From Holosporales bacterium (GTDB lineage: Bacteria > Pseudomonadota > Alphaproteobacteria > RUG11792), in the NCBI GenBank assembly GCA_031275915.1, contig JAISOC010000031.1:1-14035 (forward strand): a stretch of 14,035 nt of DNA. Reading direction: 5' to 3'. Below are positions 3,888 to 13,091 of the stretch, one piece after another. The notes beneath the pieces are model-generated. The model saw only the letters and a list, made by a program, of their open reading frames with translations, was not told the origin of the DNA and did not search any database. How positions within the stretch are numbered: position 1 is the stretch's first letter; each line of letters starts with the position of its first letter. The position numbers and the translations under genes are program-made.

Positions 3888-3916
3888 GATTTTCACTCCA
3901 TTTTTATAAAAAAAAT

Positions 3917-4789
3917 ATGTTAGGTTGGTTCTTGAGGAGGGGAGTCAAACAAGGAATAACTTTTGCGTTATTGATTTACCTTGTTTGTGCCCTAAATGAT
4001 GTCCTCATGAAGTTTCTAGGAGATAGATTGCATTTCATTGAAATCTCCTTTTTCCGATTTTTGTTTTCAGCAGTAACGGCGGCAATTCCTTTGCTGTTGG
4101 TGAAAAAGAACTTCTTGCAAACTGATATGCATGGTATGCATGCCGTAAGAGGATTATTAGGAACTGTGGCCGTTGCTCTTTGCTGTCTTGGTGTTAATGT
4201 TATGCCTTTGGCTGAGAATACAACTATCCTTTTCTCAGAGGCCTTGTTTCTTCTACCTATGGCTGGATTTGTTTTAAAAGAACATATCAATTGCAAAAGT
4301 ATTATTGCAACAGTCATAGGTTTTCTTGGACTTGTTATTATGTTTAGACCGAGCTTAGATCACTTAAACCTGCTGGCTATTATTCCAACAGCCGCCTCGT
4401 TTTTGTTCGCAATTATGAGCATTATGATCAAGATCATGGTAGATAAGGGAGAGAACAACATTACAATGCTTTTGTACTTCTCGATCTATACAACTATTAT
4501 ATCACTATTTTTCGTTCCGTTTTTTTGGATATCCCCAACAATTGAGGAATTAATTCTCCTGTTTCTGTTGGGAATCGGGGCTAACCTCGTGCAATTATTT
4601 TTATTTTTGGCATATAGGGCAACTCAAGCTTCAATAATTTCTCCCATTCGATATGCAGAATTGCCCTTTACTGTCCTGTTTGGATTCATAGCGTTCGGAC
4701 AAATTCCAGATGCTATCACTATAATAGGAGCTCTCTTCATAGTAATTGGAACTCTCCTTGCCTCATGTAATAGAGCAAATGGAATATAA
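3917..4789 (+). CDS. EamA/DMT-family transporter, similar to the rickettsial S-adenosylmethionine importer
   Basis: A 290-residue polytopic membrane protein with about ten hydrophobic segments, in the two-times-five layout of the drug/metabolite transporter superfamily. Several stretches match from memory the EamA-type S-adenosylmethionine transporter of Rickettsia: NDVLMKFLGDRLHFIEISFFRF near the N-terminus, HAVRGLL, IGFLGLVIMFRP, WISPTIEELILLFLLG and PIRYAELPF. If correct, the cell imports S-adenosylmethionine from its host, which would fit an intracellular lifestyle and a missing synthetase. EamA proteins as a group carry varied metabolites, so the substrate is inference. The start at 3917 gives an N-terminus of about the same length as the rickettsial protein. 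An AGGAGGGGAG tract lies inside codons 7-10, without a convincing in-frame ATG/GTG start after it. Confidence 0.88.
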   Translation: MLGWFLRRGVKQGITFALLIYLVCALNDVLMKFLGDRLHFIEISFFRFLFSAVTAAIPLLLVKKNFLQTDMHGMHAVRGLLGTVAVALCCLGVNVMPLAENTTILFSEALFLLPMAGFVLKEHINCKSIIATVIGFLGLVIMFRPSLDHLNLLAIIPTAASFLFAIMSIMIKIMVDKGENNITMLLYFSIYTTIISLFFVPFFWISPTIEELILLFLLGIGANLVQLFLFLAYRATQASIISPIRYAELPFTVLFGFIAFGQIPDAITIIGALFIVIGTLLASCNRANGI

Positions 4790-7074: not shown

Positions 7075-8247
7075 ATGTTGTCCAAATTTTTAAAATCATA
7101 TTTCGCAAATGCGAATTCAATATCATCAGTTGTTAACTATGATGTTGGAGACAATCACTATAGCTCTGAATATTCTGATCTGTCTGAAATCGGATATCAG
7201 AAAAATGTCATAGTATACAGGTGTATTCACTTGATCGCTCGATCAGTGGCATCTGTGTCTTGGCTTTTAAAAAAATATCATCATGAAAAAAAGATCGATG
7301 AATCTCTTCACAATCATGAAATTTTAGATCTCTTTGAAAAACCGAATTCCAAACAATCTCGCTCCAGTTTTATGGAGATGGCTGTCTCTCATCTATTGCT
7401 CTCTGGAAATTGCTATATGCAAGCTCTAAGAGATGACAAGCAAAACGTAAAGGAAATACATATCCTACGCCCAGATAGGATTAGAGTTATACCAGGAGAT
7501 AGGTCAACTCCCTTGGGATATGAGTATAACGTTGGTAAGCATCATAAAGTTTTTTTTAAAGCTGATGAAAATGGATATTCAGATGTTTTTCATATAAAGC
7601 TTTTTAATCCATTGAATGATTGGTATGGACAAAGTCCTGTCGGTGTGGCTGTTAATGCAATCAGGCAACACAATGCTATAGCTAACCAAAACATATCATT
7701 TTTGGAGAACGGGGGACGTCCCTCAGGAGCTCTGATATACAAATCATCTCTTGATACAAATCAAAAAATAGCCCTTAGAAATGATATTAAAGAAGCCTAT
7801 GAAGGAGGCAGAAATGCCGGAAAAATCCTTTTATTAGAGGGAGAATTTGAATGGAAAGAAATGGGACTCTCTCCAAAAGATCTCGATTTCATATCAGGAA
7901 AGGAATTATCTGCCAAAGAAATAGCCTTGGCTTTTGGGGTGCCATCCATACTTATTGGAGCAACTTCAGACGCCACTTTTTCAAATTATAAAGAAGCAAG
8001 ATACAACTTCTGGGAAGAAACTATTATTCCTCTCTTAAATACCATTTCAGGAGATATAACAAATTGGTTTAGATACCTGTTTAACACGAACGAATATACA
8101 ATCACATATGATATAGACTCAATACAAGCCCTTTCAAAGAGACGAGAATCAGAGTGGAACAAAATAAATGATGCAAATTTCTTAACGATTGATGAAAAAA
8201 GAGAAGCTCTTGGATATTCCATATCGAAGAGTAATAGTTTATTATGA
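7075..8247 (+). CDS. HK97-family phage portal protein, GTA-like (orphan)
   Basis: 390 residues, about the length of the portal (g3) of the Rhodobacter gene transfer agent. Portal proteins form the dodecameric DNA channel at one capsid vertex. Family features in order: VIVYRCIHLIARSVASVSWLL (about 43-63), the LLSGNCYMQAL core, LRPDRIRVIPG, HIKLFNPLNDWYGQSPV, the FLENGGRPSGALIY wing region, LSPKDLDFISGKELSAKEIALAFGVPSILIG, and DATFSNYKEARYNFWEETIIPLL (clip/stem). The C-terminus, DEKREALGYSISKS, is a normal portal ending. The frame is intact. No terminase, protease, capsid or tail gene adjoins it: it sits between DUF167 and pgk, with pgk starting 31 bases later. Dispersed single GTA genes are known from Rickettsiales; assigning this one to a GTA rather than a relic prophage is inference. 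Confidence 0.93.
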   Translation: MLSKFLKSYFANANSISSVVNYDVGDNHYSSEYSDLSEIGYQKNVIVYRCIHLIARSVASVSWLLKKYHHEKKIDESLHNHEILDLFEKPNSKQSRSSFMEMAVSHLLLSGNCYMQALRDDKQNVKEIHILRPDRIRVIPGDRSTPLGYEYNVGKHHKVFFKADENGYSDVFHIKLFNPLNDWYGQSPVGVAVNAIRQHNAIANQNISFLENGGRPSGALIYKSSLDTNQKIALRNDIKEAYEGGRNAGKILLLEGEFEWKEMGLSPKDLDFISGKELSAKEIALAFGVPSILIGATSDATFSNYKEARYNFWEETIIPLLNTISGDITNWFRYLFNTNEYTITYDIDSIQALSKRRESEWNKINDANFLTIDEKREALGYSISKSNSLL

Positions 8248-9496: not shown

Positions 9497-9716
9497 GTAT
9501 ACTTCCTTTTTGGAGGAACTCCATTGTACCAATTGCTCAGCTAGACTTTGTCAAGGTTCGCTTCGCTCTCCACCTTGACAAAGTGCCTCGCAATCGGGAT
9601 CACTTTTTTCGTTCCAAAAAGGAAATATACTGTAGGGGGAGAGAAAGAGGGAATGTAGGTGTGTACGCTTGCTCACTTCGTTCGCTAACGCTACTTCTAA
9701 CAGGGTTTATATAGAG
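9497..9716 (+). repeat. Palindromic dispersed repeat, copy A
   Basis: This fills most of the gene-free stretch 9469-9796. Its left part is a 134-bp module whose ends are inverted: GTATACTTCCTTTTTGGA (9497-9514) against the reverse complement of 9613-9630, 17 of 18 matching. In the centre ACTTTGTCAAGGT (9545-9557) pairs with ACCTTGACAAAGT (9572-9584) around a 14-base loop. A tail (9631-9716) is purine-rich and then carries a 41-base sub-repeat (9663-9703). Nearly the same sequence occurs in reverse orientation at 12829-13049. Read backwards the sub-repeat has an open frame encoding RSSVSERSEQAY, but I see no real gene. The hairpin could also help end pgk transcription. Confidence 0.9.
9545..9584. 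repeat. Central hairpin of repeat copy A
   Basis: A 13-bp perfect stem (ACTTTGTCAAGGT with its complement) encloses the 14-base loop TCGCTTCGCTCTCC. There is no U-run on either side, so it is not a standard intrinsic terminator. Confidence 0.85.
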
Positions 9717-9796: not shown

Positions 9797-10594
9797 ATGC
9801 ATACAAATAGAAAAATATTAAAGATTAAACAACACACAGAGCCGTTTCTGAGCAATGACATAGACACGGATCTCGTTAATTTCACAATAGGAGACACTGA
9901 CATAGGTGAGGAAGATGTATTCCTTGATAGTGAAAATCCAAAGTACATAAAGCTCCTTTGCGAGTTGAAGGGAATCAAAAATTTCCCAAAAATATCATGT
10001 ATGAAATCGAAGTATAAAAGTATGCCTTCCAGCAAAGATTTTTTAGATATCGAATACAACATATACGATGGTAAATCTGTGTCATTAAATGGACTTGTTT
10101 CGGAGATAAATGTTATATACAAGGACAGCTTCCCGGAGGTTCCAGAAGAGTGGACATCTTGGTTGCAGGAGAATTCCTCCATATATTCCAAAAAATTCCA
10201 CACGCAAAAGGAGAACGTTCAGGCAGAAATGAACATTGACCCAAGGTATGAAGTAACCGCGTATAATCACCTTATATCCGAAGCCTACCCAATAGCAGGT
10301 TCCTACCATAAAGGAATCCCCATAGAAAACATAGAGCAATATTTTTCGTATATAGGAATTGGATTACAAGCCAAGCCATACATAGATATCATTTCTTCGA
10401 AACAGCTGTTAAATGCCAAACATTTGAAGATATCCCCCTTGATAAAAAGTTCTCAGATCACCTCTCTTCAGGATGATATTCTTTCTGGGAAAATAAAGAT
10501 CACCATGCCAAATGAAACCAAATATCAGAGCCTCAACGTTGTTAAAGATACAATTGTTTCTGATATTTGCGTTATAAGTTTTAAGAAAGTTTGA
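9797..10594 (+). CDS. Hypothetical 265-aa protein
   Basis: I do not recognise it. The start at 9797 follows AGGAG with a 9-base gap, a good ribosome-binding site, and the frame is open for 265 residues. There is no signal peptide or membrane segment. The N-terminal 60 residues are acidic (SNDIDTDL, GDTDIGEEDVFLDSE). A tryptophan-bearing stretch PEVPEEWTSWLQENSS follows near 115-130, then NIDPRYEVTAYNHLISEAYPIAGSYHKGIPIENIEQYFSYIGIGLQ near 150-195. Only one cysteine pair is apparent, suggesting a cytosolic or type-secreted protein. It lies just inside the inverted repeat pair with no partner gene within 380 bases. Its location in an accessory island with secreted proteins makes an effector or phage role possible, but nothing in the sequence proves one. 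Confidence 0.75.
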   Translation: MHTNRKILKIKQHTEPFLSNDIDTDLVNFTIGDTDIGEEDVFLDSENPKYIKLLCELKGIKNFPKISCMKSKYKSMPSSKDFLDIEYNIYDGKSVSLNGLVSEINVIYKDSFPEVPEEWTSWLQENSSIYSKKFHTQKENVQAEMNIDPRYEVTAYNHLISEAYPIAGSYHKGIPIENIEQYFSYIGIGLQAKPYIDIISSKQLLNAKHLKISPLIKSSQITSLQDDILSGKIKITMPNETKYQSLNVVKDTIVSDICVISFKKV

Positions 10595-10713: not shown

Positions 10714-10718
10714 CGTTG

Positions 10719-10790
10719 CCATCCCTAACCCTCGCCCGCCCTGGGGCTCGTGCCTACCCCTTCATCTATGCCTCAGCATAGCTTCAGCTT
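10719..10790 (+). ncRNA. Candidate small RNA or repeat remnant: GC-rich patch behind a promoter
   Basis: Positions 10719-10760 are strongly GC-rich (CCCTCGCCCGCCCTGGGG and following), in sharp contrast to the AT-rich surroundings. The patch starts where a transcript from the 10686-10713 promoter would begin. It contains GGGG/CCCC arms (10743-10746, 10757-10760) and a perfect hairpin CTATGC-CTCA-GCATAG (10766-10781). In AT-rich genomes GC islands often mark structured RNAs. No U-run follows and I match no known RNA family (it is not tmRNA, SRP RNA or RNase P by eye). A fragment of a dispersed repeat is the alternative. Confidence 0.35.
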
Positions 10791-10846
10791 ATCATAAAAA
10801 GATTAAAAATGCGTTAATATGGTAAAAATAAACTTCAGAAAAGGAT

Positions 10847-10878
10847 CCATAAGGGATCTATACCATAAGGGATCTATA
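10847..10878. repeat. Perfect 16-bp tandem duplication
   Basis: CCATAAGGGATCTATA occurs twice head to tail (10847-10862, 10863-10878), preceded by a related GGATC at 10843-10847. It lies about 40 bases upstream of the promoter of the first secreted-protein gene. Replication slippage is the simple explanation; a binding-site array is possible. Confidence 0.9.
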
Positions 10879-10909
10879 AAAGTTTCTTATTTACTGTATT
10901 CATGATTTA

Positions 10910-11068
10910 TTTAATACTTGTGAATTTAGATTTACTGTGCTATAGTGAAGAATTAAGTACGGAAGAGTTAGTATTTTTTTATTGGAGTATAAAGTGCGTA
11001 TTAATCGTAGTATTAATGTTTTTGTAGGGCTGATTGCGTTGGTTCTTTCTGTTTGCCAAGTGTTTGGT
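10910..11068 (+). repeat. Expression/secretion cassette, copy 1
   Basis: This block of promoter, leader and 25 signal-peptide codons is repeated at 11741-11889. The coding parts differ at only about six positions over the 25 codons. The leader here is a net 10 bases longer, with an extra GAAGAATTAAGT after the -10. Similarity stops at about the predicted signal-peptidase site; the genes then share no visible sequence. Confidence 0.88.
10918..10946 (+). promoter_or_regulatory. Promoter of secreted-protein gene 1 (cassette copy 1)
   Basis: TTGTGA (10918-10923), 17 bases, then TATAGT (10941-10946) with an extended -10 TG (TGCTATAGT). The same layout and nearly the same sequence recur before gene 2 at 11749-11777, which supports function. 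Confidence 0.65.
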
Positions 11069-11722
11069 GATCAGAAGAGAGATTATGAGATTGTGGTGGA
11101 AGTCATTACAGAAGTCATTACAGAAAAGATTAAAGATACAATATATTGTAGTATAGCTGATGAGGTAATGATTCACGACGAGAAATTAAAAAAAGACAAT
11201 GAATCAATGAATGAAAATGAATATGAACCTGAAGACATCAATATACTAGATGACTACAGTGAACTTGAAAACTACAAAAGAACCAAAATCTACACAAAAG
11301 AACCATTGCTTGGTAAAACAGAAACTTCGAGGGTAGCATTGGAAATAGTAAATAAAATTATGAGTGATACCATGGTCATTAATTCCTGTCGTGAATTAAC
11401 GAATAAGATTTATCTTATTTCCAATCTTATTCCCGATAGGGAACCATATGAGTTAGATCCTAAATATCGTTCTGTGATACATGATAAACTTTTTAAATCT
11501 AAACCTTATGAACAGTTTAAAGAGAATGAACAGTTTAAAGAGATGGTTTCAATCTTGAAAGACGTAGGAAAAAAATTAGGGAAATTGTATTGCGATAAAA
11601 GTGATATAAACTTGGGCGAAGAAAACATAGAAAAGTGTATGGAGAAATATATAAAAGAATGTAAAGAAAAAGTTATACTCGCAACCAAAAAGGCCCATGA
11701 TTGGCATGAAATGTCCACCTAG
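10994..11722 (+). CDS. Putative secreted protein 1 (cassette-type signal peptide)
   Basis: I choose the GTG at 10994 because GGAG lies 6 bases before it; a TTG at 10982 is the longer alternative. The product is about 242 residues. VRINRSINVFVGLIALVLSVCQVFG is a Sec signal peptide with cleavage expected after VFG. The mature part is helical, charged and lysine/glutamate-rich, with about five scattered cysteines (YCSI, SCREL, YCDK, KCMEK, ECKEK). It has two in-frame microduplications: EVIT twice (11099-11122) and EQFKEN/EQFKEM (11510-11542). No family is recognised. A shared CRELT/CKRLS spot with gene 2 hints at very distant kinship but is too short to prove it. Location in a repeat-bounded island and the shared expression module suggest a host-directed or surface protein, by inference. 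Confidence 0.75.
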   Translation: MRINRSINVFVGLIALVLSVCQVFGDQKRDYEIVVEVITEVITEKIKDTIYCSIADEVMIHDEKLKKDNESMNENEYEPEDINILDDYSELENYKRTKIYTKEPLLGKTETSRVALEIVNKIMSDTMVINSCRELTNKIYLISNLIPDREPYELDPKYRSVIHDKLFKSKPYEQFKENEQFKEMVSILKDVGKKLGKLYCDKSDINLGEENIEKCMEKYIKECKEKVILATKKAHDWHEMST

Positions 11723-11740
11723 CGGTCAAACGATGTCAAA

Positions 11741-11889
11741 TTTAATACTTATAAATTTAGATTTTCTATGCTATAGTACGGAAGAATTAGAGTTGTTCTT
11801 TATTGGAGTGTAAAGTACGTATTAATCGTAATATTAATGTTTTCGTATGGCTGATTGCGTTGGTTTTTTCTGTTTGCCAAGTGTTTGGT
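11741..11889 (+). repeat. Expression/secretion cassette, copy 2
   Basis: The second copy of the promoter, leader and signal-peptide block found at 10910-11068. It begins at the same TTTAATACTT and ends at the GTGTTTGGT codons of the signal peptide. It lies 18 bases after the stop of gene 1, so the two are tandem. Confidence 0.88.
11749..11777 (+). promoter_or_regulatory. Promoter of secreted-protein gene 2 (cassette copy 2)
   Basis: TTATAA (11749-11754), 17 bases, then TATAGT (11772-11777), again with the extended -10 TGCTATAGT. The -35 box is weaker than in copy 1 (TTATAA against TTGTGA), while the -10 is identical. Confidence 0.6.
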
Positions 11890-12612
11890 GCTCGGAACCA
11901 AGTAATTGATCAACATCAAGCAGATATAGTTGGCGAAAGGCTGGCAAAAGATTTGGCAATGGATTTTAGAAATGGAGTTTTTGGAAGTATTAGTGTAAGA
12001 ACTTTTAACGGAATGGATTGTAACAAAGGCGATAGATTTGATGATGCTAACGATATACTTAATAATGCTAAAGTATATGATAAAACTTACAGTGAAATTA
12101 TTGGGCCGTGTAAACGATTAAGTACACAAATGGCGACATCTTTAAAAAATGCTGCAGAAATCGGTATAAAGTTTGACAGTGATTCTGGGAAAACGGCCTC
12201 GCTAAGATGTGTTAAAGATGTAGAAAAAATTGCAAGAAAAGCTGGTTGGGAACTAACAGATGTAAATGTGCCAGAAGAAGGTATAGCAAAAATTAAAGAT
12301 GCAATCGAATTAAAGATACAGGAAGTACAAAGTGATTCAGAGTTTGCACAAAAATTCTTGAAGGAATATGGAGAAGGTAAATCACTTATTCTTCGAGAAA
12401 ATAAGATTAATATCAACAAAATTTGTTGGCTCAAATTTCTTAAAGCTAACGGATCTCCATACAGAGAAACCGAGTTTGATGAAGTACAACGTCTTTACGA
12501 TGATTGGGAAAAAAAGGCGGATCCTCTCATTCGCGAAGCATGCAGTTCGTTGGATAGTCTTATTAGCAATGAGGATCTTAATCAACTCTGCGATAGCTTA
12601 TTGGAGAAATAG
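11803..12612 (+). CDS. Putative secreted protein 2 (cassette-type signal peptide)
   Basis: 269 residues if translation starts at the TTG at 11803. The GTG used in copy 1 is GTA here, so the SD-spaced start is lost and the true start is unsure. The signal peptide VRINRNINVFVWLIALVFSVCQVFG differs from that of protein 1 at three residues. The mature part (ARNQVIDQHQADIVGERLAKDLAMDF...) is helical and acidic with six cysteines (MDCNK, GPCKRL, LRCVKD, ICWLK, EACSSL, LCDSL). These could form disulphides in the periplasm or outside, where a DsbA-like protein such as the one at 5843 could act. No family is recognised. The gene ends before a zone of repeats. The long open frame and shared module support it being real. 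Confidence 0.75.
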   Translation: MECKVRINRNINVFVWLIALVFSVCQVFGARNQVIDQHQADIVGERLAKDLAMDFRNGVFGSISVRTFNGMDCNKGDRFDDANDILNNAKVYDKTYSEIIGPCKRLSTQMATSLKNAAEIGIKFDSDSGKTASLRCVKDVEKIARKAGWELTDVNVPEEGIAKIKDAIELKIQEVQSDSEFAQKFLKEYGEGKSLILRENKININKICWLKFLKANGSPYRETEFDEVQRLYDDWEKKADPLIREACSSLDSLISNEDLNQLCDSLLEK

Positions 12613-12690
12613 CTGCCAACTTGTCCTGAGGAGTTTCTCTCGACAGATTGGTGGTCTTACCAGCGCATTTGAAAGTAGCTCTCGTTTCCC

Positions 12691-12733
12691 CTGTTAGAAA
12701 CAGCGTCAGTAAACAGAGAGTGATCGAGCGTAC
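12691..12733 (+). repeat. Diverged copy of the 41-43 base sub-repeat
   Basis: CTGTTAGAAACAGCGTCAGT and the following bases up to GCGTAC match the sub-repeat in copy A' (12841-12882) and, reversed, in copy A (9663-9703), with several substitutions and a small indel. The bases after it (ACACACATACCATACC) faintly resemble the next part of copy A', so this may be an older, decayed repeat. The rest of 12613-12828 shows no gene. Confidence 0.75.
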
Positions 12734-12828
12734 AACACACATACCATACCATCTTTATTTTTCACAAAAGCTGACATTAACAAAGGGATTGACAACCAAA
12801 TTTAGAAGTTCTAATTGCCAAACCTTAT

Positions 12829-13049
12829 CTTCTATAAACACTGTTAGAAGTAGCGTTAGCGAACAATAGTGAGCAAGCGTACACTCCTATATATATACCT
12901 TCTTTCCCCCTACAGTATATTTCCTTTTTGGAACGAGAAAGAGAGAACCAGATTGTGAGGCACTTTGTCAAGGTGGAGAGCGTAGCGGACCTTGACAAAG
13001 GCTGGCCGAACAATCTGTACAATGGAGTTCCTCCAAAAAGGAAGAGTAC
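12829..13049 (-). repeat. Palindromic dispersed repeat, copy A'
   Basis: The reverse-oriented partner of the repeat at 9497-9716. The sub-repeat is at 12841-12882, a poly-pyrimidine stretch and the module ends lie at 12915-12932 and 13032-13049, and the central stem is CTTTGTCAAGGT/ACCTTGACAAAG (12963-12974, 12989-13000). The two copies differ at scattered sites, so they are not a very recent duplication. With the diverged sub-repeat it fills most of the gene-free stretch 12613-13157. Confidence 0.9.
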
Positions 13050-13091
13050 CATAGGCATTTGTCGATAATTTCATCAACACAAGCGCATTTC

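Follow-up and report, generated by a model that had tools for sequence, protein, structure and literature searches.

In reassorted type III effectors, an N-terminal secretion signal, together with its 5′ control region, stands before unrelated C-terminal parts, an arrangement that Stavrinides, Ma and Guttman reportedly described in 2006 as terminal reassortment. In the SVM proteins of phytoplasmas, the mature parts are varied. Terminal reassortment is also mentioned for type III effectors in two later papers (PMC7406222, PMC6460904), the signal-peptide family of the phytoplasma SVM proteins, PF12113, figures in a third (PMC8026896), and in the Crinkler effectors of Phytophthora sojae secreted proteins have diversified through duplicated genes and recombined fragments, the N-terminal part staying conserved (PMC3726527). 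Judged by titles and the beginnings of abstracts, none of the papers found to join terminal reassortment with signal peptides deals with Holosporales Sec signals, and none of those found on Holosporales, signal peptides and effectors has a title that refers to a cassette of the kind described below. A review regards the type VI system as the likeliest candidate for secretion in this group and notes that experimental data on the molecules secreted by it are lacking (PMC11909080).

Here we describe a window of 14,035 nucleotides, the whole stretch of DNA that was analysed, from the draft genome of a Holosporales bacterium. Pairwise sequence comparison revealed two tandem genes with near-identical promoter, leader and signal-peptide DNA, followed by different parts predicted to be exported (Table 1). 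An initial annotation had proposed a near-identical cassette at this place, with similarity ending at about the predicted signal-peptidase site, and the repeat comparison bears this out: copy 1 extends from 10909 to 11077 and copy 2 from 11740 to 11898, with a start-to-start offset of 831 bp, and similarity fades within about 9 nt beyond the predicted VFG cleavage site. Up to this site, 134 of 148 aligned bases are identical and two gaps occur. The non-coding part retains 53 identical bases out of 61 aligned, with gaps of 12 nt and 2 nt, so that the leaders differ by 13%; across signal-peptide codons 1-29, 81 of 87 bases agree, as do 25 of the 29 encoded residues. These codons have undergone four replacement and two silent changes (dN 0.062, dS 0.106), the dS resting on a single gene pair and two synonymous changes, with a binomial 95% range of 0.01-0.32 if 20 sites are assumed. 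On the upstream side, the 200 nt 5′ of each copy are unrelated (score 10 against a shuffled mean of 10.9, reached or exceeded in 402 of 500 shuffles), and the shared unit is therefore bounded on two sides. Copy 2 sets in 17 nt past the stop codon of gene 1. The duplicated 5′ unit is genuine and well delimited; an assembly artefact through repeat collapse is unlikely, as judged from the assembled sequence, since the copies differ throughout and both lie inside a 14-kb contig.

Table 1. Positions in the window of the cassette copies, the predicted mature proteins and the surrounding repeats
Feature	Position	Strand	Basis or remark
Larger dispersed repeat copy	9502..9711	-	Inverted relative to 12785..13049
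Dispersed repeat, about 103 bp	10716..10818	+	Directly 5′ of the relic; 14 other matches of at least 50 bp in the source genome
Relic of an alanyl-tRNA-editing-type gene (3′ end and the DNA that trails it)	10819..10931	+	Match to contig C22, with a 27-nt internal insertion
Cassette copy 1, putative promoter and leader	10909..10981	+	Repeat comparison, consensus promoter scan
Cassette copy 1, predicted signal-peptide codons	10982..11068	+	TTG 10982; likely start GTG 10994; predicted cleavage after VFG
Mature part, predicted exported protein 1	11069..11722	+	217 aa with 5 Cys, rich in Lys and Glu; searches gave no relative
Cassette copy 2, putative promoter and leader	11740..11802	+	Without 12 nt of copy 1
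Cassette copy 2, predicted signal-peptide codons	11803..11889	+	GTA for the GTG of copy 1; TTG 11803 is the remaining common start
Mature part, predicted exported protein 2	11890..12612	+	240 aa with 6 Cys; searches gave no relative
Larger dispersed repeat copy, about 265 bp	12785..13049	+	Same repeat as 9502..9711

The putative promoter of copy 1 consists of a -35 box TTGTGA (10918-10923), a 17-nt spacer and the extended -10 element TGC TATAGT (hexamer at 10941-10946); that of copy 2 combines TTATAA (11749-11754) with a spacer of the same length and the same extended -10 element (11772-11777). The spacer and the identical extended -10 element are thus as originally claimed, whereas the -35 boxes differ, that of copy 2 being the poorer, and a consensus scan accepts promoter 1 alone. 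The assignment is weak in both copies, and we speak of putative promoters because promoter-like sites are no commoner in this region than in shuffled sequence (6 between 10560 and 13200, where shuffles average 9.7).

Inspection of the encoded N-terminus identifies a KVRINR n-region, a hydrophobic stretch and the residues VFG, in agreement with the positively charged n-region, hydrophobic h-region and small residues at -3 and -1 of Sec-type signal peptides. Cleavage after VFG is predicted by the -3/-1 rule, which tolerates V at -3 and G at -1 without counting them as ideal. Bacterial lipoproteins carry a lipobox with G, A or S just before a cysteine, and such a motif is absent here, V preceding the cysteine in both copies. 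We infer Sec export, cleavage after VFG and co-expression for both proteins. The GTG start of gene 1 has a GGAG 6 nt 5′ of the codon and agrees with the database gene call. At the matching position gene 2 has GTA, and TTG, the start codon common to both frames, is the only common start left to it before the hydrophobic stretch; in the database, gene 2 is called from residue 27 onwards, without the signal peptide. Efficient translation of gene 2 is doubtful, and export of protein 2, plausible in itself, is uncertain because the well-placed GTG of gene 1 is replaced and TTG alone remains.

Beyond the cleavage site, the two proteins are unrelated in sequence, at the level of chance. Their mature parts share 37 of 209 globally aligned residues (17.7%, below the shuffled median of 21.9%), 75 of 1000 shuffles score as high in local BLOSUM62 alignment and 328 in global alignment, the scores of the first 40 to 100 mature residues are attained in 306, 1290 and 1113 of 2000 shuffles, and single-sequence hhalign returns a probability of 0.1%. 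Simple paralogy, in which the mature parts would align along their whole length, is not supported by these comparisons. Two slight resemblances were not counted as significant, namely a best local DNA match reached by 31 of 500 codon shuffles and a mature cysteine numbered 136 in both proteins, accompanied by a further close pair (204/208); about 0.1 such cysteine coincidences would be expected by chance, by our own estimate. Both look like real genes, since the codon-position base composition of the mature parts is like that of neighbouring genes. The frame of gene 2 is open over 269 codons, and its 87 signal-codon bases align without a gap. Single-sequence structure models reach mean pLDDT values of 36.6 and 44.5 and are both all-helical, without confidence. 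The best family matches of protein 1, below cut-off where one exists, are Pfam DUF5453 (E 0.017), NCBIfam Cmr1 (E 0.035) and PHROG 29802 (E 0.58); for protein 2 the best is Pfam DUF5770 (E 0.13, below cut-off), with no NCBIfam or PHROG match. A sequence search of the PDB gave best E values of 0.13 and 0.39, phage records matched neither protein, and among viral contigs a single pattern match per protein was obtained, neither of which was confirmed.

The DNA upstream of gene 1 offers a glimpse of an earlier history. The relic listed in Table 1 is identical to another contig of the assembly, C22 (L224:720-803), at 73 of 84 aligned bases, the insertion lying on the window side, and it overlaps cassette 1 over 23 nt at its start, the -35 box included; 18 of these 23 bases agree, a match that none of 2000 shuffles reached. 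Because the match runs through the -35 box and ends within the spacer, the putative promoter of copy 1 sits on an older rearrangement junction. Similarity to C22 extends 90 bp further 5′ than cassette 1 itself, for which reason copy 1 is probably the older arrangement and the likelier source; copy 2 keeps just the in-cassette portion of the relic. The intact C22 gene, of 251 codons, matches PF01411, and PF07973 just under the cut-off, and is read as an alanyl-tRNA-editing protein. C22 is unsupported as a parental cassette locus, similarity stopping inside the promoter spacer. A search with C22 760-1150 at E up to 0.001 gave one other match, on C22, at a sensitivity limited enough to miss the known short match in the window. 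About 360 nt past L224:720-803, the same contig carries an unrelated frame that is rich in Lys and Glu and begins like a signal peptide.

The locus lies among dispersed repeats, which makes rearrangement near it credible. The larger repeat, whose two inverted copies bracket the cassette genes, has at least 46 matches to a 441-base query (12620-13060) in the source genome, the two of the window included, a lower bound as 40 of 89 candidates were scored. A 281-base query of this repeat found matches in 6 of 35 family genomes: G009 (21 matches) and G018 (16) repeat a core of about 36 bp, G024 has longer pieces (3), and G003 and G029 have few matches. The repeat has no Rfam match and resembles an intergenic element that is proliferating in a reduced genome.

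Several other features of the window and of the source genome were recorded. A phage-type portal protein is encoded at 7075-8247 (PHROG 12, E 4.5e-79); five window proteins were compared with PHROGs and, besides the portal, gave no strong head-gene match, and a terminase-like frame was recognized by eye on another contig (L198:2913-4160). The protein encoded at 9797-10594 occurs in 31 of the 35 family genomes and has no Pfam or NCBIfam match, its best PHROG being 15852, unassigned in function there (E 0.0012). plsX was likewise found in 31 of 35. The closeness of these two genes is not conserved: among 26 other genomes that have both, they lie on different contigs in 25 and about 13.5 kb apart in G027, the family contigs being fragments. 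Among the best 80 of 564 PlsX relatives in the genome collection, the three closest come from Holosporales bacterium MAGs (54% and 51%) and a roe deer rumen alphaproteobacterium (53%), and in 20 stretches (1.2 to 6.5 kb) from 20 relatives the frames 5′ of plsX mostly differ, being alike in G006 and G026, which belong to one genus; none of these genomes contains the cassette itself. BspA-type leucine-rich-repeat proteins are encoded at L202:318-1466 and L208:4793-5788 (Pfam LRR_5) and at L196:10954-11793 (by likeness to the L208 frame), the first of them adjoined by an IcmF-related gene (L202:1625-6088).

The initial annotation had suggested that the two belong to a co-regulated family of exported proteins, perhaps with further members elsewhere in the genome, and had considered a mobile module; the searches lend support to neither. 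In the source assembly (727,082 bases in 112 contigs, 84.9% complete), DNA search, a two-row protein profile and a sequence-only model, with profiles run to E 10, located the cassette at just two places; a copy missed in the absent 15% of the genome is possible. The same two places were the only occurrences of the cassette DNA in 59 genomes, the 58 others having none. Among the 35 family genomes, protein 2 was found in the source genome alone and protein 1 in the source genome and in one weak G006 match, rejected as noise (E 0.0068, 24% identity, internal stop, outside the signal part). Each full-length query against 5.8 billion proteins at E 1e-3 matched only its own window protein, in a search that would miss proteins sharing the signal peptide alone. 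The first 40 residues, searched against the protein database at E up to 10, returned one candidate, the query's own record; the gene 2 record, which is without the signal peptide, is undetectable in this way, and mis-called relatives could likewise escape. In a genome collection of 84,980 species, the signal profile, expressed as two 8-residue patterns, matched 35 stretches, none of which was confirmed, and an Rfam scan of the window gave 0 matches. No donor or intermediate was found in the source and family genomes or among the 5.8 billion proteins, and neither cargo was seen there with another 5′ end.

Cassettes of other sequence were surveyed in 217,677 bases, comprising the window and 20 contigs, which amount to about 30% of the 727,082 bases and form a biased sample because they were repeat-bearing. 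After removal of dispersed-repeat matches, 51 repeat pairs were obtained, the window pair included. Ten stretches viewed around part of these pairs displayed repeats within genes, intergenic repeats and the tail of a gene resembling aspS by eye, and no second promoter-plus-signal cassette. On contig C24, a 101-bp direct repeat (L206:2794-2894 and 3890-3990, 95% identical) of the 3′ end of an aspartyl-tRNA synthetase-like gene, so identified by eye, flanks two small membrane-protein-like frames without Pfam matches; it resembles the cassette in being a direct repeat of at least 100 bp around coding DNA. Within the limits of these searches, a wider cassette family or a mobile or dispersed module is not seen, and the pair looks like local reuse of a gene front rather than a widespread mobile module.

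The best reading of these observations, which we consider probable, is recombinational copying of the 5′ end. A cassette of about 170 bp, containing promoter, leader and Sec-type signal peptide, would have been copied once, locally and recently, and would have ended up before two unrelated coding sequences. With the breakpoint just beyond the signal-peptidase site, the fusion would retain export and swap the cargo; both products, under similar promoters, would be exported by Sec and cleaved after VFG to yield two different cysteine-containing envelope or secreted proteins. Recombination as the cause, and the direction of copying, we infer from the sequence comparisons. Of the two alternatives originally raised, movement of the cassette before new cargo is thereby favoured over fast divergence of the mature parts. 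In that second account, a whole-gene tandem duplication would have been followed by very fast, selected divergence of the mature parts, promoter and signal peptide being conserved. The tandem order, the similar mature lengths, the all-helical if unreliable models, the shared cysteine 136, and the lack of homologs for either protein, as expected of fast-evolving genes, all agree with it, and a similarity boundary at the cleavage site would be produced by selected divergence just as by recombination. We nevertheless regard it as unlikely, since a signal-codon dS of about 0.11 and moderately diverged leaders stand beside mature proteins at chance and mature DNA near chance. With four replacement and two silent changes, the signal codons show little constraint, and their similarity suggests that they arose recently. 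With dS and dN low in these codons and the mature parts at chance level, it is unlikely that whole paralogs drifted apart by point changes, as a whole gene duplicated at that time should have left mature parts that remain largely identical.

Low 5′ divergence, unrelated mature parts and tandem position would also be accounted for by gene conversion, in which two neighbouring exported genes of older date, sharing either a front end alone or a kinship no longer recognizable, recently had their 5′ ends homogenised. Such a process requires sufficient prior 5′ similarity, the copies still differ by the two gaps and 14 bases, and no older paired arrangement could be traced, the cassette being absent from the 58 other genomes; we hold it to be quite improbable. 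That gene 2 is a by-product, the cassette having landed before an existing frame and lost its start, with a product that is unexported or decaying, is suggested by the GTA codon, the poorer -35 box and a gene call starting after most of the signal peptide; given an open frame, ungapped signal codons and an available in-frame TTG 11803, we judge it very improbable. Against recombinational copying itself speak the slight excess of similarity in the mature DNA, the cysteine coincidence, the failure to find a donor and the restriction to one pair, and our confidence in it is held where it is because substitution counts are small and the structure models too poor for folds to be compared. It is a more tentative and rather doubtful extension of this reading that reassortment of Sec signals is an origin of new exported proteins in this reduced-genome lineage, whereby a junction-born promoter and signal peptide, recopied before unrelated coding DNA, would create exported orphans at a single stroke.

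One such pair, from one draft genome, is suggestive only. Should the reading be true, terminal reassortment would extend, in a Holosporales-like bacterium, to ordinary Sec signals and entire promoters, and it would constitute one route to export-ready orphan genes. Searches of the source and family genomes found no further copy of cassette or cargo and no parent genes that combine these parts differently; only the flank could be traced to another locus, on C22. Compared with the Crinklers, the locus shares the diversification of secreted proteins behind a conserved N-terminus, whereas the Crinklers are a eukaryotic superfamily whose conserved motif follows the signal peptide. Like the phytoplasma SVM proteins, it places one type of signal peptide before different exported proteins in a host-dependent bacterium, but PF12113 matches neither protein (Pfam, E up to 1) and a single pair is involved. 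The closest known parallel is the terminal reassortment described for secreted effectors: as in type III effectors, a homologous 5′ end with a secretion signal is joined, at the level of sequence, to a non-homologous remainder, with the difference that the signal is predicted to be of Sec type, cleaved and 29 codons long, and that the chimeras form one tandem pair.
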